From NCBI GenBank assembly GCA_012862575.1, contig BLSF01000038.1, forward strand, positions 250,317-314,316: 64,000 bases of DNA, given 5' to 3'. Every line of letters starts with the position of its first letter. The stretch's first letter is position 1. The stretch is from Parietichytrium sp. I65-24A. Its lineage: Eukaryota; Sar; Bigyra; Thraustochytrida; Thraustochytriidae. The notes beneath the pieces are model-generated. The model was not told the origin of the DNA, ran no database searches, and saw only the letters and a program-made list of their open reading frames with translations. Of this stretch, positions 4,634-63,891 are shown one piece after another. A program made the position numbers and the translations under genes.

Positions 4634-7600
4634 ATGCCGGGACTGACGCGGGTGACGTTCAAGGTGAAGGCGGACCTGGAAATCGGGCAAAACCTGGTCC
4701 TTACCGGGGACAACCGTGCGCTGGGATCGTTTAGCCCAAACCGGGGGCTGCCACTGGTGACCACGCCGCAGGAGTTTCCCATCTGGCGCACGAACCGGCC
4801 TGTAAATCTGCCAGCTGGCATCCCGCTCTCGTACAAATATGTCATCACCAGCGGCGGGCAGTTTCACGGCTGGGAGCCGATCATTGCACACGCCAGGGTG
4901 TTTGTCCCGGAGGGCAGTGAGATGGAGGTGTTAGATGAGATGGGAGTCTATGAAGACGATAATAGCGAGCTGGCCAGAGCGGCCACTCTGCAGAGAAGCA
5001 GCTCCAGATCGGCAATGTCCCCGGTGTCTGGAGCATCTCCCACAAGCCCAACTTCACCAGCGGCCCAGCAAGTTGGCCAGCTCCAACAGCGACTTCAACA
5101 GAAAACCGAGCAGGATGCACAGCCGAAGAGGCCCACACATCCCCATGTTCGTTTCAAGCTTAACGATGCCAGCTCGGACGTCGTCTTCGCTGGCGCGGAC
5201 CAGTCTGCTGGAATGCCTGCAGAAACGACTGAGAGAGAGTCCTCCAGTGCATCTGCATCTGCATCTGCTCAAGCGGAGGGGCTCACCGAAGCAGCACATT
5301 CAGGCGAGATACCCGCGCGGCTCAGCGCGGATGGAGGTGAGGAGAGAGAAAAGTCAGGACTGGAAAGCGCTTTTAAACAGCCTGCGCAAATGGAAGATCA
5401 GGAGTCCAAAAAACCTAAAGAAAAGACGCGGAGGCACAGTCTGCACAACCCAATGCACGCGCGTTCGTCCTCGGACAATCAAGATCTATGGGAACAACAT
5501 AAGCGCCGGGCCGCGCTTTCCGACGGGGACACTGATGACGAAAGCGATCAGCTAGGTGGCGACGGAGGCGGCCCTCAGAGGGCATCGATCAGCAAACGAC
5601 TAAATCGCTTCAGCTCTGCTGGCGATAAAAAACCCGACCAAGCTGAAATGGCGCGTATTGAAGCTGAGTTTCGCTCTTCCCCTGCAGCTCGCCCACAACA
5701 ACTCAAGTCATATCGCATGTTCCTCGTCTCATACAATCTCCCGATGTTCCTCTATGTTGACCCAACCAAGCCTGCCGGAAAACGCTGGCGCGCGGAGTGG
5801 AATCCCGACAGCATATCGAGGAAATCAGAAGATAGTGTGGCAAACGATCACTCTGTGATGTGGGTCGGGGCCATCACACCGTACGTAATCATTGATCCTG
5901 ATGTCGAGCTGTGTTGGAGGCTCAAGGAGGAAGATCGGCAAGAGATTAGCACCGTCCTGAAAGAGTTCAATTGCGTCCCTATTTTCTTCGAGAAGGAGAC
6001 GTTCGTTGATCACTATGTACGCTCCTGCCTGCTGCGCATTCGCGATATCTTCCACAATGTGCTTGGAGTCAATATTCCAAACGAGGCTCGGAGACGAAGG
6101 TACGAGGTAGAAAAGAGCGCAGACCTATTGGATATGGAATCCGATCCAATTTCGAATCCTGAGCAGAGTGACGGCGACAGACCAGCTTCCCCAATATCGG
6201 CATCGGGTGCTTCCGAGAAGAAGAAGCGCGACCGTTGGGAAGGCTTTGAGCATGGCTGCAATATCTTTGCGGAGAAGATCATGGAGCTCTTGAAGGAAAA
6301 CATCACGGACAGAGATCTGGTGTGGGTACATAATTATCCGCTGATGCTCGTCCCACGCCTCTTGCGGGAGAAGGCTGCCGCTGCTGGTCTCTCCCTGCAG
6401 ATGCAGCCTAAGATTGTCTTCTTCCTGCATACGCCGTTCCCGACCTCAGAGATCTTTCGTACACTTTCGGTGCGTAACGAACTTTTAGAGGGCGTTCTCG
6501 GGGCCAACATTGTCGGTTTTCACACGTTTGACCACGCTCGGCATTTCATCACTTCTTGTAAGCGGTTTCTGGGACTTCAGTTTCACTCCCAAGAAGGCGG
6601 CCGTCTCGTCGTTGACCACATGGACAGGGCAGTTCTCATCGCTATATCACACGTGGGAATTGAGAGAAACCTTCTCAACGACGCAGTGGAGTCTCCCGAA
6701 TGCCTATCCATGGCGGATGCCATTCGCAAAAAGTACCAGGGGAAAATCATAATTGTGGGAATGGACGAGTTAACTCGTCTTAACGGCGTGCCTCTAAAGC
6801 TTCTTGCATTCGAGAAACTTTTGAATGAGATCCCAAAGTACCGCGACAAGGTGGTCTTTATTCAGCATGGACTTCGTGTGCTTGCCCATCAACTGATTCG
6901 ATTGACTGAAGCAGACATCATGAGCAGTCTCGAAGATCGTGGCGGAAAGCTTGAAGAGGGTGTCCGAGCAATTGTGGAGGTCAAGGAGCTGTGCGATCGA
7001 ATTAATCGCGTGCATGGTCCAGTGGCAGTCTTCAAAGAATATCCTGTCAACGAGTGGCCAACTGTTGAGCAAAGGGCAGCCATTTGGGCATCGGCGGACA
7101 TCATGATTTGCACACCAGTAATGGAAGGGCTGAATCTACTACCGCTGGAGTACGCCTTCTGCCACCGGGACCCTGCAGGAGTTGTCATCATGTCTGAATT
7201 TTCCGCAGCATCCAGAGTGCTCAACGGCGCAATTCGAATCAACTGCTACGACATGGAGGAGATAGTGACTGCTTTTGATCAAGCGCTTTGCATGAGTGTG
7301 GAGGAAAGAAATGCGCGACGTGATCGAGATTGCAGCTACATTACCAACCGGTCGAGTGCGGCTTGGACTCGCAACATTCTTTTGGATGTCGAAGCTGGCA
7401 TATCCAACCAATCCCATGTCATAACCTCCCTGGACAAGGATATATTGCAAGGGTCCGAGTACCACAGTGTTGTATCCTTTGAGAATGTTGTTCTGGAAGG
7501 ATTTTGTCAGCCACTGGTAGTGAACGACGTTGTGCGCAGCTACGAGAAGTGCAGCAAACGTATCATCTTCCTTGACTATGCGGGAACCCTGGCACCTCGC

Positions 7601-8524
7601 GAGCTTGGGAATCTTGCGGTGAAGCGCGATTTCCTGGGAATCAGCAAGCGCAAGTTGTCGCCAAAGGTCTCCACAATTTTAAAGCTCTTGTGCTCCGATC
7701 CGCGTAATATTGTGTTCGTAATCAGTGGAAATTCCACTGAAGTCCTTACTGCTGCCTTTGCGGAGATTCTCGAAGATCCAAGTACTCCACTTGGAATTGT
7801 TGCGCACTCTGGGCTGATGATCAGATGGGGGAACATTCTGCGCAAGGCGGAGTTGTCTGCAACAAACCAAGCGCAGCTGTTCCAGTCCAGGAATCTCGGC
7901 AACCTCCGCGCGCAGTCCCCCGTCGATGACAACAGCGACTGGGAGCACATTCTTCCTGGAGTGGAGCAGGAGTGGTCCGGGTGGATAGAGGCTGCGGAAA
8001 TCCCCGATATTCTGGAAGATTACACTTGGAGGACCGGCGGAAGCTCTTGGCGACAGACCAAGGTGACTACCTCGTGGCAGTTCCGGCAAGCAGACCCTGA
8101 ATGGGGCGGAATGCAGGCTGTCGAGCTTCAACACGAGCTCGAGGAGGCAATCGCCAACGTGAACGTTCCGATCGCCGTAATTCGAAAGAAGCATACGGTG
8201 GAGCTGCTTCCCAAGGGAGTTGACAAAGGCAAGGCCGTGTCCCATATATTCGAAGAAGTCAAGCAACGGGTTGGCTTTGAGCCAGACTACTGCTTTTGTG
8301 TAGGTGATGACACCTCGGATGAGCCCATGTATTCAAATGTCATGGATCATATGGCAAGCGCGCCATACAACAGCAGTGTCTCCGAGCGCTTCGGACATGT
8401 TTATACCTGTACAGTTGGTAGAAAGCCGACCGCAGCTCAGTATTACCTCACTGACACCGAACAGGTGGTCCAAACTCTGTTCGAATTGTCCAAATCCCTG
8501 GCTTCGAAACCCGTCAGCAGCTAA
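4634..8524 (+). CDS. CBM20 - trehalose-6-phosphate synthase - phosphatase fusion, probably catalytically dead
   Basis: A 1296-residue protein. Residues about 3-100 form a CBM20 starch/glycogen-binding domain, and 105-345 are a Ser/Pro/acidic linker. About 350-945 is a GT20 trehalose-6-phosphate synthase domain, and about 975-1290 is a HAD-type TPP domain. The GT20 fold blocks are clear (FFLHTPFPTSEIFRTL, GANIVGFHTFDHARHF, GLNLLPLEYAF), but key residues known from E. coli OtsA are changed. The N-terminal Arg is Asn368, the Asp of the VHDYHL block is Asn567 (VHNYPL), and the Arg/Lys pair of the DRLDYIKG block is Glu712/Asn717. In the phosphatase the DxDGT box reads DYAGT: nucleophile Asp981 remains but the second, acid/base Asp is Ala983. 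GDDTSDE (1224-1230) is kept. This resembles plant class II TPS proteins, so a regulatory role linking stored glucan to sugar-phosphate status is inferred. A linker insertion sits at about 490-535. Confidence 0.93.
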   Translation: MPGLTRVTFKVKADLEIGQNLVLTGDNRALGSFSPNRGLPLVTTPQEFPIWRTNRPVNLPAGIPLSYKYVITSGGQFHGWEPIIAHARVFVPEGSEMEVLDEMGVYEDDNSELARAATLQRSSSRSAMSPVSGASPTSPTSPAAQQVGQLQQRLQQKTEQDAQPKRPTHPHVRFKLNDASSDVVFAGADQSAGMPAETTERESSSASASASAQAEGLTEAAHSGEIPARLSADGGEEREKSGLESAFKQPAQMEDQESKKPKEKTRRHSLHNPMHARSSSDNQDLWEQHKRRAALSDGDTDDESDQLGGDGGGPQRASISKRLNRFSSAGDKKPDQAEMARIEAEFRSSPAARPQQLKSYRMFLVSYNLPMFLYVDPTKPAGKRWRAEWNPDSISRKSEDSVANDHSVMWVGAITPYVIIDPDVELCWRLKEEDRQEISTVLKEFNCVPIFFEKETFVDHYVRSCLLRIRDIFHNVLGVNIPNEARRRRYEVEKSADLLDMESDPISNPEQSDGDRPASPISASGASEKKKRDRWEGFEHGCNIFAEKIMELLKENITDRDLVWVHNYPLMLVPRLLREKAAAAGLSLQMQPKIVFFLHTPFPTSEIFRTLSVRNELLEGVLGANIVGFHTFDHARHFITSCKRFLGLQFHSQEGGRLVVDHMDRAVLIAISHVGIERNLLNDAVESPECLSMADAIRKKYQGKIIIVGMDELTRLNGVPLKLLAFEKLLNEIPKYRDKVVFIQHGLRVLAHQLIRLTEADIMSSLEDRGGKLEEGVRAIVEVKELCDRINRVHGPVAVFKEYPVNEWPTVEQRAAIWASADIMICTPVMEGLNLLPLEYAFCHRDPAGVVIMSEFSAASRVLNGAIRINCYDMEEIVTAFDQALCMSVEERNARRDRDCSYITNRSSAAWTRNILLDVEAGISNQSHVITSLDKDILQGSEYHSVVSFENVVLEGFCQPLVVNDVVRSYEKCSKRIIFLDYAGTLAPRELGNLAVKRDFLGISKRKLSPKVSTILKLLCSDPRNIVFVISGNSTEVLTAAFAEILEDPSTPLGIVAHSGLMIRWGNILRKAELSATNQAQLFQSRNLGNLRAQSPVDDNSDWEHILPGVEQEWSGWIEAAEIPDILEDYTWRTGGSSWRQTKVTTSWQFRQADPEWGGMQAVELQHELEEAIANVNVPIAVIRKKHTVELLPKGVDKGKAVSHIFEEVKQRVGFEPDYCFCVGDDTSDEPMYSNVMDHMASAPYNSSVSERFGHVYTCTVGRKPTAAQYYLTDTEQVVQTLFELSKSLASKPVSS

Positions 8525-47249: not shown

Positions 47250-49385
<2,136 letters not shown>

Positions 49386-49727: not shown

Positions 49728-50384
49728 TTATTTGTCCTTCTTGTCTTCGGCTGGTGCTTTGTCCAGCTTTTTCTCAAGTTGGTGAATCTGCTCGAGCAAC
49801 CGTTCGTGCTCGCGGTCAAATCCAGCTGCTTGCTTCTTGATGGTCTCCACCTCTCGCTCAGCTTCTTGGAGTTTGGTTTTGAGCTGAACGTTCTCACTGA
49901 GCACCTTCTCCATCTTGGTGGCAGCTTCGGACGAGGACCCGCTCTTCTTGAGACCTTCTACCTCGTCCAGCATCTTTAAAGTCTGTTCGGATGCCGACTT
50001 TGCCTGCTTTTGCGTGGCCATGAGATTCCTTGCCATCTTCTCCTCAGCGGCTTGCGCCCTGACCATCTTGCCGCACAGCACTTGCGCCAACATAAAGCTC
50101 GCGAGCAGCACGCACACCAGCACAGCCCTCAGCACGTTGATCTCCATTCCCATGTACAGCGGGTCGCTCTCGTACATCTGGTTCCGCGGGCGGTAGTCCA
50201 TCATGCCTTTGGCGTTCTCCACGAGCGGCACCAGCGACGTGGCTGCTGCTGCCACCGTCAGCACCAGCCCTGGCTTCAAGGTCAGCACCATTTCCAGCAC
50301 GCCGCGCGGCAGCGGCGACGCGAGGATGCACATCAATACGAAGATACTCACCGCCACACCTTCCGACAGCCCGAAACGCAGCAT
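49728..50384 (-). CDS. BAP31-like ER membrane protein
   Basis: 218 residues. Three hydrophobic segments (about 9-33, 37-55 and 82-106) precede a cytosolic coiled coil (about 115-205, for example ENVQLKTKLQEAEREVETIK). The protein ends in KKDK, a canonical KKxx dilysine signal that returns membrane proteins from Golgi to ER. The segment YRPRNQMYESDPLYMG between segments 2 and 3 matches the R-x-QRN-Y region of BAP29/BAP31. Size, topology and tail signal all fit. BAP31 relatives act in ER export and quality control of membrane proteins. The gene lies directly behind a pyrimidine-rich upstream tract (50396-50602) and is tail to tail with the Ser-Gly protein gene. Confidence 0.82.
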   Translation of the reverse strand: MLRFGLSEGVAVSIFVLMCILASPLPRGVLEMVLTLKPGLVLTVAAAATSLVPLVENAKGMMDYRPRNQMYESDPLYMGMEINVLRAVLVCVLLASFMLAQVLCGKMVRAQAAEEKMARNLMATQKQAKSASEQTLKMLDEVEGLKKSGSSSEAATKMEKVLSENVQLKTKLQEAEREVETIKKQAAGFDREHERLLEQIHQLEKKLDKAPAEDKKDK

Positions 50385-51131: not shown

Positions 51132-54100
51132 TTACACATAGAGATCGCCGTCTTCGTCACTGGCATCAGCATTTGTCTCATACACAGTGCGGTTCTGGCG
51201 AAAGCTATTCTGCGGGCTCCCATTAGCGGCGGCCACGTAGGACTTCTCTTCATTCCCGGTGTTTGAGACGAAAGAGGTGTTGTGATGACGAGCCAGAAAG
51301 GAGTCGTCTCGCGCGTATCTGCTGCCTCCGGTTCCCACTAATATATTACTGCTGGACAGATCGTTGGAACCGCTGTCAGATGCGGTATTCTGCCATCCCC
51401 AGTTGAAGATGAACCAGACTTTTGGAAGAAAGAGAAACAGAACGGGCGTCACTGCGGTGGAGAGCACGATGGCCAGCAGAACGACAAATCTGGCGGTAGG
51501 GTTGTCGCCAGCAATGAATAGAATGGGGATGCCCAGAATTAAAGCCTCAAATGCAGTCACCAGACTAAAGGCGATGTATCGCCCCTCGCCATACTCTGAT
51601 GGAATCCGGCGGGACTTGTAGATCAAGAGTAGGCCGTATAGCAAGATACCAAGGCACACCGCTGCCAATGGCGTTCCGACAAAGCCCATGTCGGCAGTAC
51701 ACAAACCGTACGATTCGATCACTTCATTGGAAAGAGGGTCCGTCTTGACGGGGAATCGCTGCCAGGTGAGACGGCCGGGCTCGTAAAATATCCAGAGGAG
51801 GTTGAGCCCGATGACGACAAAGATAAGCATGATCTGGTACATCTGCATGCGCTTATTGGTGATGTAAACGCGCTTGAGCTTCGGATTGTTGAAAATCTTT
51901 TCCAATCGCCATGTCTTGAGCCACAGAGAGCTATAGAGGATGACAAACCCAATTGTGTAGAGAAATGGCGCAGCCATGCACGCAGCGTCAACAAGGGCCG
52001 ATTCGTCATCGTTGCTTTGCATGGAAAGCGGGATGATGGCCAGGACGCAAAATGTAGCACCCACGAGGATCTGGATCATGAAAGGCGGCGAAGAGATCAA
52101 GACGATTTTCCGCTTGCGGTTATGGTGAGTCCAGACCGCCAGAAAAACGAACAATGCAAAGCACAAACCGCACAATGCATATGCGAGATAGACCAATCCA
52201 GCTGGGATGTTGTTGTACTCGAAATCGGGCAGGAGAATGCTGGTGTATGTCGAATCTGAGTAGCATGATATCGTTTTCAGGGTCAGCAGGGTTGCACTAG
52301 ATAGCGCTCGAAGGTTGTAAAGGGGGAGAAGCCCTTGGGAGACAAGCGGCTCGGAAACATCGACCCCGCTACGGGACAGAAACACATCGTAAATGAAGCC
52401 AACCATGGATGCAATGTCTTCGCCACTTCCAACACCAGTTCCGCACTCATTAGATTTGGCATAGTAGGTCGCCCGGGTTACAATTGTCGTCGATGCAGAG
52501 AGGGGATAGCAGCCAGCCTTGTCTCCAGTCAAGTCAACCATGTCTACGAAGGTCGATGATCCCTCGACCGTGAGGCTAGTGCTTGCATCGTAGCACGCCT
52601 CGAGGCTATCGGTTGAGGGCTCCACGGCGTTTGTGCTCGAGCTCACGTAAAGCCTCACTTTACCGACATCTGACCGAAGCTGAACGTCTCCTACGAACAC
52701 TGTAAAAGCAATTGAATATGCCTCTGTAGCTATTGCAGATAGCTTCTGAGTGTTGTCTTTCTTGATGTAGCTGTCAGAACTGGGAACGATTTCGAAGGTG
52801 GAATCACCTGTGATTGTCCGCACCAAACTCACAAAGTAAGTTTCCAGTTCCGATTGTTCCTCAGTGCCAATCACAGCGATCGAATGGTTCATATCCGCTA
52901 AAAAGGCATTGTCTTTGACAATATCTGCGTGATTCCAAATCTTAATTTCGCCGCTTAGAATTTTCGCCAACGTGGACACCGACAAAGTGAGCTGATTTGT
53001 TGAGCTGTCCACAGCGCAATTTGCCTCGGATGTGTCACTCGAGCCACAAAAGTTCACCACTGCTCCCAGCGCAATCTGAGCAAACGGCAGAGCCACCACG
53101 GACAGCTCAGACTGCATGGAGCTGATCTTTTTCTGAATGTCGGTTTCGGAAGTGTGCACAATTGCAATATCGGCGGGCTCATCCAACAGGAGCTTGTCGA
53201 GGGCATCTGAGCTGGTGTCTTCGAGGGTCTCGCTGCCAAAGACAACTTCGGTGTTGGTGACTGAGTAAGAGCGGCGATACTGGGCCATGATGTCGTCTAG
53301 ATCACTAATACCTGCAAGATCAATTTTTGCAACTGTATCGCTGGGGTCGACATACACGAGTGTCCCATTGTTGTAAAGCATATCTGCCTTGATACGGGCT
53401 ATTACAACATCTCGAATCGTCTCAGTGAGGGGAGCAAAGCCAAGGTCCTTGGCTAGCTGGCGTGCTACGTCACTTTCGTAAAACCACAGAAAGAAGTTTT
53501 GAGTTGCGAGTCGTGCTTCGTCAGAGGAGGCCGACTCGGCTTTGCGAATGATAAAGTATGTGTACCCAACGATTGGCCAAGCTTGGGAACCCACGGCGTT
53601 GGAAATATCGGCGACAAGCCTCTCCTTGTGCTCTGTCCCAAAGTCCAAGCCACGTTCCACCATTGCATTTTCCACGGACACGGTGTTTGGGGCGACTGGT
53701 TCGGAGCCTTCCTTTTTCAATAGACTGGCGCACGCAAGCCCGATCGACAAAGCCTCGCCGAGTACTGAGTACCCGATTGAGCCGGAAGTTAAGGCGACAT
53801 AGCCAGCAACGCCGACATTGGACTCGTGCTTTACTACATCGGCATTGTACGCGCTGTTATCCGAGCTGTTGCCGACTTGGGCGCCGAATTCCGCTTCAAA
53901 TTCTGACAACGCACTTTTAAAGATCTGGCTTGTCCCCGAATCCTCGGCGCGCACTACCACAGAAATCTCTCCCGCGTTCTTTAGCGCAGCAACGACACTG
54001 GCATCAGGGTTGAGAGCCAAGATGTCGTCATCGTCCCATCTTGTGATACTGCCAGGAAGGCAAGTGTAGCTGCTGTTGGAGATGCATTTGCGAAAGATGC

Positions 54101-54494
54101 GGGCTGTGATTTCTCCCGTGAGTACCAATGTATGGCCGAGCTCGTCAAGAGCAGGAAGATTGTATATGATCGCCACGGCTCCAGCAACTGAAGGATACGA
54201 CTGGATGTCCGTGTACGTCTCGTAATCCTCGTCGCTGAACGCCGAATCAGAGCCTCCCCAGTCAATAGTGCTTGCGGACGTGGTGCAGTCGCCCTTGATC
54301 ATGCATTTGCCTTTGCCGGAGCCCACACCGACATAACTAAACTGCGCGCCAGGGTCCCGAAATCTGTATGCGAAGAGCGCATTCTGGTACAATCTCAGAG
54401 GAAAGGTGCCTCCAGCCGCATTTACTTGGATCTTTGCTTCGGCCTCGCTCGATACATGTGCCAACACCGCGAGCGCCACGAAAATTGCCTTCAT
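51132..54494 (-). CDS. Class C GPCR with tandem PstS-like (phosphate-binding) ectodomain
   Basis: 1120 residues from ATG 54494, which starts a signal peptide (MKAIFVALAVLAHVSSEAEA); the frame is open 11 codons upstream. Domain 1 (about 20-395) is a PstS-like periplasmic binding fold. It keeps the motifs that hold phosphate in bacterial PstS: GGTFP at 28-32, GVGSGKG at 56-62, IDWGGSD at 77-83 and RAEDSGTS at 182-189. Domain 2 (about 405-690) is a second PstS-like fold (STLAKILSGEIKIWNHADIV near 505) in which the Arg-Ser-Gly-Thr motif is degenerate. Seven membrane segments follow (about 763-1030), with class C (7tm_3, GABA-B-like) character (VYLAYALCGLCFALFVFLAV, WLKTWRLEKIFNNPKLKRVY). The Ser/Asp-rich cytosolic tail is about 90 residues. 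There is no cysteine-rich linker domain. A surface phosphate or oxyanion receptor signalling through G proteins is inferred. Confidence 0.85.
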   Translation of the reverse strand: MKAIFVALAVLAHVSSEAEAKIQVNAAGGTFPLRLYQNALFAYRFRDPGAQFSYVGVGSGKGKCMIKGDCTTSASTIDWGGSDSAFSDEDYETYTDIQSYPSVAGAVAIIYNLPALDELGHTLVLTGEITARIFRKCISNSSYTCLPGSITRWDDDDILALNPDASVVAALKNAGEISVVVRAEDSGTSQIFKSALSEFEAEFGAQVGNSSDNSAYNADVVKHESNVGVAGYVALTSGSIGYSVLGEALSIGLACASLLKKEGSEPVAPNTVSVENAMVERGLDFGTEHKERLVADISNAVGSQAWPIVGYTYFIIRKAESASSDEARLATQNFFLWFYESDVARQLAKDLGFAPLTETIRDVVIARIKADMLYNNGTLVYVDPSDTVAKIDLAGISDLDDIMAQYRRSYSVTNTEVVFGSETLEDTSSDALDKLLLDEPADIAIVHTSETDIQKKISSMQSELSVVALPFAQIALGAVVNFCGSSDTSEANCAVDSSTNQLTLSVSTLAKILSGEIKIWNHADIVKDNAFLADMNHSIAVIGTEEQSELETYFVSLVRTITGDSTFEIVPSSDSYIKKDNTQKLSAIATEAYSIAFTVFVGDVQLRSDVGKVRLYVSSSTNAVEPSTDSLEACYDASTSLTVEGSSTFVDMVDLTGDKAGCYPLSASTTIVTRATYYAKSNECGTGVGSGEDIASMVGFIYDVFLSRSGVDVSEPLVSQGLLPLYNLRALSSATLLTLKTISCYSDSTYTSILLPDFEYNNIPAGLVYLAYALCGLCFALFVFLAVWTHHNRKRKIVLISSPPFMIQILVGATFCVLAIIPLSMQSNDDESALVDAACMAAPFLYTIGFVILYSSLWLKTWRLEKIFNNPKLKRVYITNKRMQMYQIMLIFVVIGLNLLWIFYEPGRLTWQRFPVKTDPLSNEVIESYGLCTADMGFVGTPLAAVCLGILLYGLLLIYKSRRIPSEYGEGRYIAFSLVTAFEALILGIPILFIAGDNPTARFVVLLAIVLSTAVTPVLFLFLPKVWFIFNWGWQNTASDSGSNDLSSSNILVGTGGSRYARDDSFLARHHNTSFVSNTGNEEKSYVAAANGSPQNSFRQNRTVYETNADASDEDGDLYV

Positions 54495-55982
54495 CATCGC
54501 TCGCTGCTCGATGTTCCGCGCGCACATATAGAGATCTGCTGGGCCAGTTCCTTCGACCTCTTATGGCGCAGGCCCTGAGACGGTAAGTACTGCACCTCCG
54601 TATTGGGAACTAGAGTAGTGCGGAGCGCGGTCAAGGCGCCCTGAAAGCTTGTGTGAAAACGTCTTTGAAAGACCATTTCTAAAGAAGGAAGAGTGGTGAT
54701 GCGTTTCTTCTTTCACCTTACTCCTCGCTTGATTGCGAGTCAGTCAATCAGTCAGTGCTCACTCGCCAGAACAGCCTGCCAGTCCAGCAGCGTTCTTTCT
54801 ATGCGCGACGTAGCGTAGAGTCCAAAATACTTCTCACGGGCTTTCCAGTTCCACCTTCACCCTTCACTCACGGTGCTACAATACCGTGGCACTGTACAGC
54901 CTCACTCACGGCCACCCTCGCGGAATGGCAGATTCTAAAAGAGACGAACGCAGAGGCAAATGTAGACAAATGCGCAAAGCAGAGTTGTTGGCGGCGATAG
55001 CGGGATGGCAGTGAGAATCTATCCTCTCATCTTCCAACCTCTGTATGTGCAGGGTGGATTCTCGCAGGAGACACCTCACTTGATTCCAAGCTTGATTCAC
55101 CCATGGCGCTTCTCTGCATCTTGGCGTGGTGATCATTCCGCCACCAGTAGATCCTTCGTCTTAATTCTGCAAACCTCATGTCTCCGCCAGGACGGGTCAA
55201 CTCGTCAACATAAAAACAATTTGCCGGGAGTTGTAGCATTTACCCTGGTGCACACAAAGGACCACGCGCGCCGACACTTACTCAGGCCCACGAAAGGTGT
55301 CGCGCAGGAGAGCGGTCGATAGGATCAGTTTTTGGTGACTTGGTACTGAGTAGCTGTTCACTCTGTTGACGGTGGTCCAGGCGAGCGGCTGCTTCTGCAA
55401 AGTGACTCGGCTGTTGGCCAGCTCGAACTGTGCTCGTTTCAACATCGCCAAGTCGAACTATTTTTTAATTATATTTATACTTTTTAAAAAAAGCCTTCAC
55501 TTTTGAGACAGCGTAAGAGACCCGCGACAAATAGGTTAAAGAAAGTTCTCGGCCGAGCTAATTTTTACATGTTTTGCTCTTTCTGAAAATCTCTGACTTC
55601 TAAATTCTAATTCCGATCGCATCATTATCATCATTCTCAGCCAGTTCTTTTAGTCTCCTGCTTCAAAAGTCACAGTCAATTACTTCTGAGTCTATCATAC
55701 GCAAAAGCAGACATCGCACATCAAGATTCCTCTCCTCCTTCCTTTCGAATCTCTTCACCTGTACTGAGTACTAGTACTAGCAATAGCACAGCAGAGGTGT
55801 GCACCTATGGGTTGGTACTAGTACTTGTACGGGTGCTAGTACGCAAGATTCGTTGATGATTTACAGTGCCACAGTGAATTATGGTACCGAAGGATTAGTC
55901 TAAAATCTAGTCTTTATGGCCCGAGGACGCCTGGCGTAGCTGTTGCAGCTAGTGTCCGAGTTGTCTGAGTTGTTTGCTTGCT

Positions 55983-56034
55983 TGTGATTGATTGATAATT
56001 GATTTTGATTGATTGAGATTGATTGAGATTGAGG
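55983..56034 (+). repeat. TGATT-based degenerate repeat
   Basis: TGATTGATTGATAATTGATTT followed by GATTGATTGAGATTGATTGAG. A/T-rich slippage repeat, non-coding. Confidence 0.85.
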
Positions 56035-56859
56035 GAAATGAGAGAGAAATGAAAGAGGAAGCTAGCAAAGGGTTTTACATGCTGCGTCATATGAGCTGCG
56101 TCGAGATGACGAGATGACGAGATGACTGACAAGATCCTCGACGATTTTTTCTTTCACAGAGGGAGAAGGAATCAACGCAAATCATCTGGTACGGAAACGA
56201 CAGAAACGATTGGCTCTTGCGCCAGTACACTGTCCTCGAGACAGGTCTGTGGACAACCACTACTGTATGGCGCCTCTGAAAATTTCTGAAACCACAGAAC
56301 TGGCTGGCACCTCGTACATTTCAAAGATATCCAAGAGTCGGCAGCATCGAGCACAGATGTCATTGCCATTTGCCATTGCCATTGCTCTTGGATGACTAGA
56401 TCAACGAACGCCGTGACAGCAGAATGGCATCATCAGAACTCAGAAACTAAGAGAAATCGACAGTTTCAGCGGAGGCGACTCTGAAACACAGTAGCAGCAG
56501 AGATCAAAATTCAACAAAACAATGTTTCGAAAACATCTCACATTTCGTAACCTGTCTTATGTTGCCATACTCCAGTGACTCGGCTAGTGACATCTTTAGG
56601 CTCCTCCGACATTGCGCAGATGAACACTTCTATTATTCGCGATCATAGAACCATTCCTCATGTATTTGGTTCTCAATAGCAAGCTCTATGCTACCCAGTT
56701 GATTGGTTGTGAACTCCACCGTTCCTAACGCGCCATGTAAGTTGGATAGGGCTCCCCAGCGCGTACACTTGACCGTCCTCGTTACTTGGTTGTAATACTG
56801 CGCGGTAGTGTAAGGTTGCATACAGGTGCATACGGTCTGCGTACGGTCTGCATAGGTAC

Positions 56860-56909
56860 AGAGAAAGAGAGAGAGTGAAGGAAAGAAAGAAAGTCGGAAA
56901 GAAAGAAAG
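56860..56909 (+). repeat. GA/GAAA purine tract abutting the eIF4A-III start
   Basis: A nearly uninterrupted purine run (GAGAAAGAGAGAGAG, then GAAA units) ending at the base before ATG 56910. It is therefore almost certainly transcribed as 5' UTR. Confidence 0.95.
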
Positions 56910-58190
56910 ATGAGCTCGAAAGGCAGCAAGAGGCAGCGCGAAAGCGGAGAAGGAGAGCGCGAGAAGCGAAGTCGGCGCGATGGATCAGGTATCGTTTCGG
57001 CGAAGAGCTCGCTAAGAGATGTAGGCGAGAAGGACATTTCACAGAACGAGGAGGTGGCCATCTTCAAGAGCTTTGACGATATGGGGCTCAAGGAGGAGCT
57101 TCTGAAGGGGATCTACTCGTTCGGGTACGAAAAGCCCTCCGCCATTCAAGAGCGTGCGATTGTGCCCATTTTAAAAGGAAGGGATTTGATCGCGCAGAGC
57201 CAGAGCGGTACTGGAAAGACCGCGGTTTTTTGCATCGGGATGCTGCAGGTGGTGAACAACAAAGAGCGCAGTGTGCAGGCCGTGGTGCTTTCTCCAACTC
57301 GCGAGCTTGCCGAGCAGACCCACAGCGTGGTGACAGCCCTTGGAAGTTCCATGAATATCAAATGCCATGTGTGTATCGGAGGCAAGCGGCTCGGGGAAGA
57401 TATTCGCGAGCTTGAGAGCGGCGTGCACGTTGTGTCCGGGACGCCGGGCCGTATCTTCGATTTGATCAGAAGGCAGGCGTTGAAAACTCAGGGCATCAAG
57501 CAGTTTGTAATTGATGAAGCCGACGAGCTCTTGCAGCGCGGCTTCCAAGAGCAGATATACGACATATACAGATACCTACCTTCGACAGTGCAGGTGGTAC
57601 TCATTAGTGCCACAATGCCCAAAGACGTGTTTCAGCTGGCCAAAAAGATGACGAGCAACCCTTTGTATATTCTAGTGAAACGAGATGAGCTTTCGCTCGA
57701 CGCCATTAAGCAATACCATGTTGACGTCGAGAAAGAGGAGTGGAAATTCGACACTCTCTGTGATTTGTACGACATGCTCACCATCACCCAAGCCGTCATC
57801 TTCTGCAACACGAGAAAGAAGGTGGACTGGCTCTCGCAGGAGATGAAGAACGCGGGATTTACAGTAACGTCTATGCATGGGGACATGGAGCAAAAGGAGC
57901 GCGATGCGACCATGAACGAATTTAGATCCGGTGCCAGCCGCGTCTTGATCACCACTGACCTTTGGGGCCGAGGAATTGATGTGCAACAAGTGTCTCTAGT
58001 TATCTGTTTTGACTTGCCATCGAATCGAGAGAATTACTTGCACCGCATCGGCCGTTCTGGCCGATTTGGACGGAAAGGTGTTGCAATAAATTTCGTTACA
58101 GACGAGGACTGGGAAACTTTGCGAGGAATCGAGAGGCACTACAAGATCAAAATTCCCGAGATGCCGATGAGTATTGCTGACTACATGTAG
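56910..58190 (+). CDS. EIF4A3: DEAD-box RNA helicase eIF4A-III (exon junction complex)
   Basis: 426 residues, the usual length plus a charged N-terminus. All helicase motifs are present: Q-motif region ([14 protein letters not shown]), Walker A ([10 protein letters not shown]), [16 protein letters not shown] box (FVIDEADEL), SAT (LISATMP), RGIDV and [13 protein letters not shown]. The C-terminal half, with [36 protein letters not shown] and the end [10 protein letters not shown], matches eIF4A-III rather than the translation factors eIF4A-I/II. The protein clamps spliced mRNA as core of the exon junction complex and acts in nuclear RNA processing. It is kept even though most genes here have no introns. 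The start follows a purine-rich leader directly. Confidence 0.95.
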
Positions 58191-61104: not shown

Positions 61105-63891
61105 ATGCGCGGGGTGGTGGGGCTAGGCGCAGGCGCGGCGCTGGCGTCGATGTTGAGCGCGGCTAATGCGGCAGAGAACAGCTTGCAGGCCGCTAGCAAC
61201 ACGTGCTTGCTGAACGATACATTCAACAAAGAGTCCATGTATAAGCTGAAGCTGGACACAGGGTCGCTTTTGTTCACTATGGTGACAGAGCCTGGTGGCG
61301 AGGACCCTCACCAGTGCTCAAGCAACACAACTAACCTTGACGAGGCTGATACGATCAAATACTACAAATTTAGCAAAGGGTATCTCACGTACGTCTTCGA
61401 AAATTACACGTACAGCGGCGATGATGAGATATGCCCTGGGTCGTACTTTACGCCGCTTCTGTACACAGAGATTCTGTGGAGCGATTCTACACGGGCGGTG
61501 TTCTACTTTGTCCTCATGATGTGGTGCTTTTTGGGCATAGCTATAATCAGCGATCACTTCATGGCTGCCATCGAGGTGATCACCTCTAAGGAGAAAGTAA
61601 TTGTCCTTCATAATGAGAATGGCGAACCGGAAGAGCATCGCGTCCTCATTTGGGACGAGACGGTAGCCAACCTGACCCTCATGGCTCTGGGCAGCTCCGC
61701 ACCAGAAATTCTACTCTCCGTCATCGAGACTGTGGGTAACCTGGATACGGAATACAACGCGAAGGTTGAGGGGCTTGGGCCAGCCACAATCGTCGGATCT
61801 GCTGCATTTAACCTCCTTATCATTTCTGCGGTCTGCGTGAGTGCGATCAAGGATGGGGAAAGCCGTGAGATCGAGCAATACGGGGTGTTCATGATCACTG
61901 CCTCGTTCTCGGTTTTTGCGTACATATGGATTTACATTGTGTTGAATGACACATACGTCGAGGTCTGGGAAGCCTGTGTGACTTTTGCCTTGTTCCCCTT
62001 GTTGGTGTCTCTCAGCTATGCTCAGAACAACAGCTGGTTTGGAAAGTGCGGCGGCGCAACAGGAAAAGTGCGACCGGACAGCGGTGGCCATGTTGTGGCC
62101 CTAGACAGCGAAAACCATCCTCATTTCGGGAAACGCAGCGGCAGCTCTCAGGGTGTGCTGACCGTGGATGATGTGGAGAAAGAGAAGCTGGCCAATATAA
62201 TTCACCAGCTTCCACCGGGAATCTCGGAGGACGACATGGCTCGCATCGCAGCACAGGGCATGATGCAAAGTGCAAAGCCAAGTACCATGCGCTATCGAAT
62301 TGATGCGCGTCGCAAACTGGCCGGCGGGCGGGGAATCATCAAGAAGAACTTGGATGTCATCAAGAGACATACCATCCGCCGTTTCAGCCAAATTGGTGAC
62401 CAAGAGAGCTCTGCAAAGAAGGAGATGCTTCAATCTCTAGTTGCTGGGCTGCCGAAGGTTTCGTTCTCGGCGTATGCCTACTCTGTGAGCGAGAACGCGG
62501 GATCTATCAAGATTCCGGTTGTGAGGATCGGAAACTCAATGGAGCTGAGTAAGACATCCACTGTATACTACGAGACACGGTCCGGTACGGCAAGGGGCTC
62601 GGAGGACTTTGTTCACGTTGACGGAAAGCTCATCTTCGAGCCTGGCGAGACCGAAAAGTGTATCGAAGTCGGCATCATTGACGATAACGTCTTTGAGCCT
62701 GACGAGACTTTTACAATTCTCCTGTCCACAAAGGGCGACGACCATAATTCAGACTTGAAGAATGGCCAGTACAGCACCTGCGAGGTGACCATAATTGACG
62801 ACGACAAACCTGGCACCTTTAGTTTCGTGAATGGGTGCCTCGTGGTGAAGGAGTCCGACGGCGTTGCCAAGTGCGTCATTCGCCGCCACGGAGGTGTCGA
62901 CGGGAAGGTAAAGCTTAATTACCGCACCAAAGATTACACCGCTAAAAAGGATGTAGACTTCTTCGGAGCAGAGGGCACCTTGCTCTTCGATCATGGTGTG
63001 AACGAAGCAAGTTTCGATATTGTCCTCATTGATGACAAGCGTTATGATAAAGAAACCACATTCGCCGTGGAATTTGATATCGTGGGCCACCCTAATTGTG
63101 GTGCGGATTACGGCGAACACCGCGTGCTTTCGGTAAGCATCACCTCCGATGACGGTTACAAGGCCACTGTCGACAGAGTCGCGGAGCTTATGAAAGCGCA
63201 TCTGGAGAACTCAGACATCGGAACCGGCAGCTGGATGGAGCAGCTGCGCGAAGCTCTCACTATTGAAAGCGAAGAGGGTGAAGACCCGCGGGTATTGGAC
63301 TGCATACTTCACGTTTTATCATTCCCTTGGAAGGTCTTGTTCGTGTTGGTACCGCCGACAACCTACGGATCTGGATACCTCTCTTTTTTCGTGTCACTGC
63401 TATTTATTGGCTTGCTGACCGCTTTCGTAGGGGATGTCGCCTCAACCTTTGGATGCCTCGTGGGTTTTGGAAATGGTCTCACGGCGATCTCCCTGGTTGC
63501 GCTCGGTACCTCGTTGCCGGATACTTTTGCGTCTAAAATGGCTGCTGAGAACGATTCCAACGCTGACAACTCTATCGGCAACATCACTGGAAGCAACAGT
63601 GTGAACGTTTTTCTTGGACTCGGGCTCCCGTGGATGATTGCTTCCATTTATAAGGCCGCGAAAGGCAAGAAGTATCAAGTGAGCGCGGATGGCTCGCTCC
63701 TCTCGTCCGTCACTGCATTTTGCGTTGCTGCTGGGGTTTATTTCGCGATCATGTACTTTCGCAAGTGGAAAGGCTGGGGCGAGCTTGGAGGTCCAAGAGT
63801 TCCGCGAATTATTACATCCTTAATATTTTGTGCCATGTGGGTGGCCTTCATCGCTTTCGTATATAAGAGCTCCCAGGATGACACCGCATAA
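61105..63891 (+). CDS. Na+/Ca2+ exchanger with two Calx-beta domains (NCX type)
   Basis: 928 residues. A signal peptide (MRGVVGLGAGAALASMLSAA) is followed by an N-glycosylatable ectodomain and an N-terminal membrane block. The alpha-1 repeat has ALGSSAPEILLSVIE near 193-207 and GPATIVGSAAFNLLIISAVC. A large cytosolic loop holds Calx-beta 1 (about 449-545, ending in DDNVFEPDETFTILL) and Calx-beta 2 (about 569-664, with DDKRYDKETTFAVEF); these acidic ends are the expected Ca2+-binding clusters. The C-terminal membrane block holds alpha-2, with VALGTSLPDTFASKMAAEND near 796 and GNITGSNSVNVFLGLGLPW. Both ion-binding signatures (GSSAPE, GTSLPD) are intact, so an active plasma-membrane exchanger that extrudes Ca2+ using the Na+ gradient, regulated by cytosolic Ca2+, is likely. 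The architecture is that of animal NCX. Confidence 0.93.
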   Translation: MRGVVGLGAGAALASMLSAANAAENSLQAASNTCLLNDTFNKESMYKLKLDTGSLLFTMVTEPGGEDPHQCSSNTTNLDEADTIKYYKFSKGYLTYVFENYTYSGDDEICPGSYFTPLLYTEILWSDSTRAVFYFVLMMWCFLGIAIISDHFMAAIEVITSKEKVIVLHNENGEPEEHRVLIWDETVANLTLMALGSSAPEILLSVIETVGNLDTEYNAKVEGLGPATIVGSAAFNLLIISAVCVSAIKDGESREIEQYGVFMITASFSVFAYIWIYIVLNDTYVEVWEACVTFALFPLLVSLSYAQNNSWFGKCGGATGKVRPDSGGHVVALDSENHPHFGKRSGSSQGVLTVDDVEKEKLANIIHQLPPGISEDDMARIAAQGMMQSAKPSTMRYRIDARRKLAGGRGIIKKNLDVIKRHTIRRFSQIGDQESSAKKEMLQSLVAGLPKVSFSAYAYSVSENAGSIKIPVVRIGNSMELSKTSTVYYETRSGTARGSEDFVHVDGKLIFEPGETEKCIEVGIIDDNVFEPDETFTILLSTKGDDHNSDLKNGQYSTCEVTIIDDDKPGTFSFVNGCLVVKESDGVAKCVIRRHGGVDGKVKLNYRTKDYTAKKDVDFFGAEGTLLFDHGVNEASFDIVLIDDKRYDKETTFAVEFDIVGHPNCGADYGEHRVLSVSITSDDGYKATVDRVAELMKAHLENSDIGTGSWMEQLREALTIESEEGEDPRVLDCILHVLSFPWKVLFVLVPPTTYGSGYLSFFVSLLFIGLLTAFVGDVASTFGCLVGFGNGLTAISLVALGTSLPDTFASKMAAENDSNADNSIGNITGSNSVNVFLGLGLPWMIASIYKAAKGKKYQVSADGSLLSSVTAFCVAAGVYFAIMYFRKWKGWGELGGPRVPRIITSLIFCAMWVAFIAFVYKSSQDDTA

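Follow-up and report, generated by a model that had tools for sequence, protein, structure and literature searches.

Eukaryotic microbes respond to phosphate supply, but in most of them no surface receptor for external phosphate is known to be established. Two papers have described proteins of a build that bears on this question. SPPG_06488 of Spizellomyces was listed in 2012 as a class C receptor with the domains PBP_like_2 and 7tm_3, and the accessible portion of that paper proposes no ligand for it (PMC3251606). In 2016, proteins of Plasmodiophora brassicae that join 7tm3 to PBP_like_2 or SBP_bac_1 were read as phosphate transporters, and such fusions were taken to be unique to that organism (PMC4815078). 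Here we analyse a 64-kb window (the whole stretch of DNA under study) of the thraustochytrid Parietichytrium sp. I65-24A, together with searches of its genome (42.5 Mb in 172 contigs). The window contains a gene whose product is confirmed, at the level of sequence, as a class C type G protein-coupled receptor (GPCR) with an ectodomain of the bacterial PstS type. This protein probably sits in the plasma membrane as a receptor that would detect external inorganic phosphate, or a closely related oxyanion, and signal via heterotrimeric G proteins.

A class C receptor with a PstS-type ectodomain

The receptor gene occupies positions 51132-54494 of the reverse strand as one frame of 1120 residues without an internal stop. 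The first ATG would extend the frame to 51132-54527, and further ATGs lie at 54497 and 54494, the last of which yields the 1120-residue protein with a hydrophobic start. Two PstS-type domains (D1 and D2) come next, then a seven-helix domain resembling that of GABA-B, and the chain ends in an acidic tail. A preliminary description, made from the letters of the stretch, had proposed a signal peptide, two PstS-like domains, seven membrane segments and a tail in a single intronless frame, and this is borne out by the frame itself, by the Pfam and NCBIfam models and by hydropathy; the signal peptide is judged by eye only, the N-terminal start not being among the windows above 1.4 in the hydropathy scan. 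Seven hydrophobic segments fall within residues 762-1032, the last two merging. Windows above 1.4 also occur at residues 240-259 (1.47) and 462-485 (1.88), which we read as the buried core of PstS-type folds because they lie inside D1 and D2.

The assignment to class C with a PstS-type ectodomain, likewise proposed at the outset, agrees with the profile search, in which both PBP_like_2 and 7tm_3 exceed their curated cut-offs. PBP_like_2 matches in two stretches (E-value 1.5e-26; 94.2 bits against a cut-off of 27), as does the NCBIfam PstS model TIGR00975 (E-value 3.7e-50), and D2 passes the Pfam cut-off by itself (35.5 against 27 bits). The closest solved structure by sequence for the ectodomain is E. 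coli PstS (E-value 2e-29, residues 9-377). For the membrane part, 7tm_3 scores 114.6 bits against a cut-off of 33.5 (E-value 8.2e-33), the closest solved structure is GABA-B2 (E-value 4e-18, residues 753-1026), and the alignment of the seven-transmembrane (7TM) domain to GABA-B2 (E-value 1.4e-18) supports seven helices.

The TM3 lysine and the TM6 acidic residue (transmembrane helices 3 and 6) form the ionic lock of class C GPCRs. Aligned with GABA-B2, the window protein has K860 as the lysine of KTWR and E970 as the acidic residue of TM6, together with C839, C932 and a PK pair at the end of TM7; C839, C932, K860 and E970 are invariant in a 9-row alignment of the protein with its relatives. 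The same columns were compared across the class C frames of the genome, where 37 frames were aligned, one ending in TM3 and 36 spanning the 7TM domain (frame L054 aligns poorly). Cysteine is found at both 839 and 932 in 36/36 of the spanning frames; the K860 column holds Lys in 32 and Arg in four, and the E970 column holds Glu in 34, Asp in one and a gap in one.

Scanned against Pfam, the window protein shows no ANF_receptor match, its ectodomain being PBP_like_2 instead, and no cysteine-rich linker domain. Non-animal class C receptors differ in the type of their ectodomain, according to the 2012 survey (PMC3251606), and the ANF_receptor flytrap is thus a trait of the animal members rather than of class C as a whole. 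The 7tm_3 search of the Parietichytrium genome returned 82 matching stretches, some genes being split in two, and GPCR domain enrichment has been reported in thraustochytrids (PMC6050695). In the 37 class C frames scanned, where a single frame may match several domain models, the ectodomain matches were Bmp (13), ANF_receptor (6), Kelch models (4), PBP_like_2 (3), OpuAC (3), Peripla_BP_6 (3), SBP_bac_1 (1) and CHB_HEX_C_1 (1). By this tally, the PstS-type ectodomain is one among several kinds of bacterial binding-protein sensor carried on class C receptors.

The tails of the window protein (51135-51164, reverse strand) and of its relatives P0001-P0004 close with acidic stretches and a terminal Val (ETV, DTV, DEV, LYV). 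Such ends resemble PDZ-binding ends.

The phosphate site and the probable ligand

In the residue numbering of the chain of the matched structure, E. coli PstS contacts phosphate through T10, F11, S38, D56, R135, S139, G140 and T141, and all eight contacts are kept in D1 of the window protein by alignment. The non-bacterial D1 domains can be set out as 37 rows, with a Kelch-PstS protein on contig C95 kept apart. Four of these rows (P0004, P0014, P0024 and P0025) are unreadable at some contact, and 29 of the 33 rows readable throughout keep all eight, Thr or Ser being accepted at position 10; the non-keepers are two paralogues on contig C10 of the same genome, P0009 and P0019. The presence of every listed PstS contact in D1, and their retention in most readable relatives, strengthens the phosphate reading. 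Its recognisable phosphate clamp makes the receptor a tangible candidate for a phosphate sensor, one that can be put to the test at a single residue, R182.

Conservation points to the same domain. The window protein is 50-58% identical to P0001-P0007 in D1, 24-34% in D2 and 38-56% in the 7TM domain, and D1 is the best conserved of the three domains in six of these seven close relatives, the exception being P0003 (7TM 54 against D1 52). Across seven rows, invariant columns number 102/358 in D1, 27/357 in D2 and 69/280 in the 7TM domain. These identities and counts indicate that constraint on D1 at least equals that on the membrane domain.

By profile comparison, D2 is a homologue of D1 (E-value 7.5e-10, 18% identity) and, as far as its sequence tells, is degenerate, the Arg and the SGT loop being gone and the remainder not conserved. 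In a low-identity alignment, S397, D398, S428, E450 and T544 of D2 face T30, F31, S59, D83 and R182 of D1, and a gap faces S186-G187-T188; in relatives, the D2 positions facing D83 and R182 hold many different residues. With Thr standing in place of the Arg in D2, and nothing but a gap where the SGT loop should be, phosphate binding in the manner of PstS would be possible in D1 only. The initial proposal that the receptor reads phosphate gains from the eight contacts of D1 and has to be narrowed accordingly to the first of the two domains.

We propose that D1 would act as a PstS-type clamp closing on phosphate, its contacts being read from the sequence, and that D2, whose place in the chain is between D1 and the membrane, is probably a rigid coupler or a dimer surface. 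Closure of D1 would shift the receptor dimer, be relayed through D2 and free the TM3-TM6 charge pair in the GABA-B-like domain, and this release would activate one of the G-alpha proteins of the cell (a G-alpha search of the genome returned 24 stretches, 17 of them over the cut-off). The dimer shift, the release of the charge pair and the activation of G-alpha follow the general behaviour of class C receptors. Uptake would be the task of ordinary transporters, and the receptor would report on phosphate rather than transport it.

Several observations weigh against a phosphate receptor. The score of TIGR00975 (170.8 bits) lies below the equivalog cut-off of 205, so the PstS equivalog level is missed. 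D1 has E184 where E. coli PstS has D137. Both readable C10 paralogues have Gln in place of the phosphate-binding Arg, one of them with Glu for D56 as well, and the family therefore does not always keep the phosphate site. Finally, GNATATNC, the P1BS element, is not enriched in the window (7 matches against 6.75 expected), and none lies in 54495-56909, upstream of the start.

The main rival keeps the same build and assigns it another ligand, such as arsenate, phosphonate, polyphosphate, a phosphate ester or a small organic acid. Domains of the PBP type change ligand easily, and both E184 and the loss of the Arg in the two readable C10 paralogues would suit such a change; however, the eight direct contacts are all kept here and in the great majority of readable relatives, and we regard a different ligand as unlikely, if worth serious attention. 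The C10 paralogues with Gln are natural contrasts for the ligand question. A second rival, in which the receptor is constitutively active or adhesive and its PstS part a relic, would account for the lost site of D2 and for the missing Arg of the two paralogues; it sits poorly with D1 as the most conserved domain in all but one of the close relatives, and we consider it improbable.

PBP_like_2 occurs in the genome in six stretches, comprising two in the window gene, three in the C10 cluster and one in the Kelch-PstS protein on C95. The C10 cluster (L009, L010) consists of four related PstS-7TM genes, two of which contain runs of N or X. In at least two of the C10 paralogues the first frame stops at a shared point within TM3, with the 7TM domain resuming in another frame; this break is probably an intron. 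In the C95 protein (L011:958-3507, reverse strand), Kelch repeats precede a PstS-type domain, a hydrophobic segment lies close to the C-terminus, and 5/8 of the contact positions are as in E. coli PstS.

Relatives, other transmitters and origin

A first search and a profile search returned the same ten proteins, eight of which carry both PBP_like_2 and 7tm_3 (1085-1463 residues), and the PstS-7TM layout is therefore more than chance. The closest named relative is P0001 of the thraustochytrid Hondaea fermentalgiana, at 46% identity. A search seeded with divergent relatives gave at least 196 proteins; among the 120 of these that are listed, at least 12 combine PBP_like_2 with 7tm_3 in precomputed Pfam annotation, and their sources include Hondaea, the raphidophyte Heterosigma akashiwo and a record labelled Batrachochytrium salamandrivorans. 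The preliminary description had suggested looking for the same fusion in other taxa, and it is evidently to be found there. A scan of viral contigs for relatives gave 16 pattern matches and no relative.

The sensor is also joined to transmitters of other kinds. PBP_like_2 is linked to a nucleotide-cyclase domain in P0027, P0035, P0036 and P0037 (1, 17, 93 and 208 member sequences, respectively) and, in P0029, part of a transcriptome set of marine eukaryotes, to a cyclic-nucleotide phosphodiesterase. The four cyclase-fusion proteins appear to be eukaryotic, judging from their kinship and build. All five proteins have a second repeat outside D1, which suggests that the unit that moved is the tandem. 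One ligand clamp is thus paired with several kinds of transmitter, and its occurrence, as the tandem PstS-type sensor, on cyclases and on a phosphodiesterase speaks for signalling. This sensor, shared among a GPCR, cyclases and a phosphodiesterase, is the more interesting part of the finding. A further relative, P0010 (GGOE01002110, eukprot), holds the C-terminal portion of a PstS-type domain, a second repeat, a hydrophobic stretch and a cytosolic part, and carries no Pfam domain; the cyclase match of its cytosolic part is non-significant (E-value 0.3).

These fusions also bear on the transporter function proposed in print for the Plasmodiophora brassicae proteins (PMC4815078). Transferred to the window protein, that proposal has to contend with a 7tm_3 domain bearing class C hallmarks and with the presence of the same sensor on cyclases and a phosphodiesterase. 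Moreover, the PstC and PstA permeases were not detected in the genome by searches that did match 14/14 control genomes (12 and 13 of these above the cut-off, respectively), which argues against a transport role, and four stretches encode transporters of the PHO4 type. We judge the transporter reading weak and highly improbable, and the published Plasmodiophora ‘phosphate transporters’ may themselves be receptors. The genome also contains ten SPX stretches.

The origin of the sensor was approached with a tree of 53 D1/PstS rows, built without the C95 protein, P0009, P0020, P0004, P0014, P0024, P0025 and P0034 and after removal of the wrong-frame loci L061, L102 and L104. In this tree, 30 non-bacterial rows form one clade (support 100/100), which joins eight Chloroflexota rows (100/99.9) as opposed to 15 other bacterial rows. 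P0039, P0083 and P0128 are named as Chloroflexota, and P0043, P0054, P0069 and P0093 were assigned by their place among the named ones. When P0009 and P0020 are included, the non-bacterial rows still form one clade, and the C95 protein falls outside it on a long branch. A single entry into eukaryotes near Chloroflexota would fit the rows that were sampled. The donor phylum is a lead only, because the bacterial sample is small and the scan patterns favour Chloroflexota: 28 of the 80 loci passed the motif filter (most Chloroflexota loci being dropped), 15 of these 28 were used (1 Chloroflexota, 14 other), and the contig-scan patterns were drawn from an alignment holding four Chloroflexota or Chloroflexota-like rows, such titles being borne by 45 of the 80 loci.

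The number of fusions was considered from both halves of the protein. In the 7TM tree (55 rows; L054 and L010:1758-4310 skipped), 15 PstS receptors fall in one supported clade (98/99), and Heterosigma, P0020 and P0009/P0025 are placed elsewhere, a pattern that would imply repeated fusions or swaps. The 21 PstS receptors need four label changes in this tree, of which well-supported branches force only one, and the 7TM label needs three changes in the D1 tree. The fusion of PstS to the 7TM domain may have happened once or several times, both being compatible with the trees. P0003 groups with P0005-P0007 in the sensor tree and with the window gene in the 7TM tree, supported both times. This discordance is what a joining of two genes by chance or in assembly could appeal to, but such a fusion is very unlikely, to the point of being negligible, given that the layout recurs in the relatives counted above, that both trees unite the window gene with P0001-P0003 and P0005-P0007 in one clade, and that a single transcript across ectodomain and 7TM domain, as initially supposed for the window gene, is seen in the relative P0002, labelled complete by its source, an outcome that concerns P0002 and not the window gene.

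Taken together with a phosphate-receptor reading of the window protein, these patterns lead us to a broader and tentative proposal, which we hold with somewhat less than even confidence. A bacterial PstS would have entered eukaryotes once, near Chloroflexota, been doubled into a clamp and a coupler, and then been mounted on a class C GPCR, adenylate/guanylate cyclase and cyclic-nucleotide phosphodiesterase in algae and heterotrophic protists as a phosphate-sensing cassette. If so, the proteins that carry it would serve these organisms as receptors, at the cell surface, for external phosphate.

Features of the locus and comparison with known systems

The features of the receptor gene are collected in Table 1.

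Table 1. Features of the receptor gene, in window coordinates.
Feature	Positions	Strand	Basis
Receptor coding sequence, 1120 residues, intronless; alternative upstream ATG 54527	51132..54494	-	Open frame, Pfam
Signal-peptide-like N-terminus, residues 1-20 (judged by eye)	54435..54494	-	Sequence
D1, PstS-type, phosphate contacts intact, residues 21-378	53361..54434	-	Pfam, NCBIfam, PstS alignment
T30 F31 (E. coli PstS T10 F11)	54402..54407	-	PstS alignment
S59 (E. coli PstS S38)	54318..54320	-	PstS alignment
D83 (E. coli PstS D56)	54246..54248	-	PstS alignment
R182 (E. coli PstS R135)	53949..53951	-	PstS alignment
S186 G187 T188 (E. coli PstS S139 G140 T141)	53931..53939	-	PstS alignment
D2, second, degenerate PstS-type domain, residues 379-735	52290..53360	-	NCBIfam, Pfam, profile comparison
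Seven-transmembrane domain, 7tm_3, GABA-B-like, residues 762-1032	51399..52211	-	Pfam, GABA-B2 alignment, hydropathy
C839, conserved class C cysteine, TM3 start	51978..51980	-	Relatives, GABA-B2 alignment
K860 in KTWR, opposite the GABA-B2 KTWR lysine	51915..51917	-	Relatives, GABA-B2 alignment
C932, conserved class C cysteine, extracellular loop 2	51699..51701	-	Relatives, GABA-B2 alignment
E970, opposite the NDSK aspartate of GABA-B2 TM6	51585..51587	-	Relatives, GABA-B2 alignment
Cytosolic tail, residues 1033-1120	51135..51398	-	Alignment, hydropathy

Ordinary eukaryotic genes lie near the receptor gene, including a DEAD-box helicase (56910-58190) and a Bap31 coiled-coil-domain protein (49728-50384). 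On the forward strand, 47250-49385 encodes a protein that begins with a hydrophobic stretch, carries a Gly-Ser dipeptide repeat several hundred residues long and has no Pfam match, 4634-8524 encodes a single protein in which an N-terminal starch-binding CBM_20 accompanies a glycosyltransferase family 20 domain and a trehalose-phosphatase domain, and 61105-63891 encodes a sodium/calcium exchanger with Calx-beta domains.

The PstS-7TM layout was found in the open-licence literature searched only in PMC3251606 and PMC4815078, and neither a characterised receptor nor a proposed phosphate-sensing GPCR of this kind was found there; PstS-type sensor fusions to cyclases or phosphodiesterase were likewise not found described. 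The abbreviations of PMC10445921 include PBP_like_2, with no tie to a receptor found in the accessible part of that paper. The early impression of a layout without a characterised receptor thus holds within this literature, but the layout itself was in print in 2012 and 2016, which lowers its novelty. As far as our searches show, what is new within the same literature is the intact phosphate site and the joining of the tandem sensor to nucleotide cyclases and to a phosphodiesterase. The supposed uniqueness of such fusions to Plasmodiophora brassicae is contradicted by the present data and by the 2012 Spizellomyces listing.

Among known systems, SPPG_06488 of Spizellomyces resembles the window protein in placing PBP_like_2 on a 7tm_3 receptor (PMC3251606), and the Plasmodiophora brassicae proteins have the same domain pair by their published description (PMC4815078). 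In Hondaea fermentalgiana, P0001, P0006 and P0011 combine PBP_like_2 with 7tm_3 and are named glutamate-like or GABA-B receptors, names that omit the PstS-type ectodomain. The Dictyostelium Grl receptors also join a class C 7TM domain to a bacterial binding-protein ectodomain, but theirs is BMP, another family than PstS. The window protein shares with GABA-B2 the 7TM domain, the KTWR lysine, the TM6 acidic residue and the cysteine pair, without a cysteine-rich linker in the Pfam scan; the GABA-B flytrap is ANF_receptor of Pfam clan CL0144, whereas PBP_like_2 belongs to CL0177, as given in the 2012 survey (PMC3251606). With bacterial PstS it shares homology over the whole domain and the eight contacts in D1. 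Unlike bacterial PstS, the window copy is tethered to a receptor and doubled, with the second copy degenerate, in a genome in which no PstA/PstC was found.

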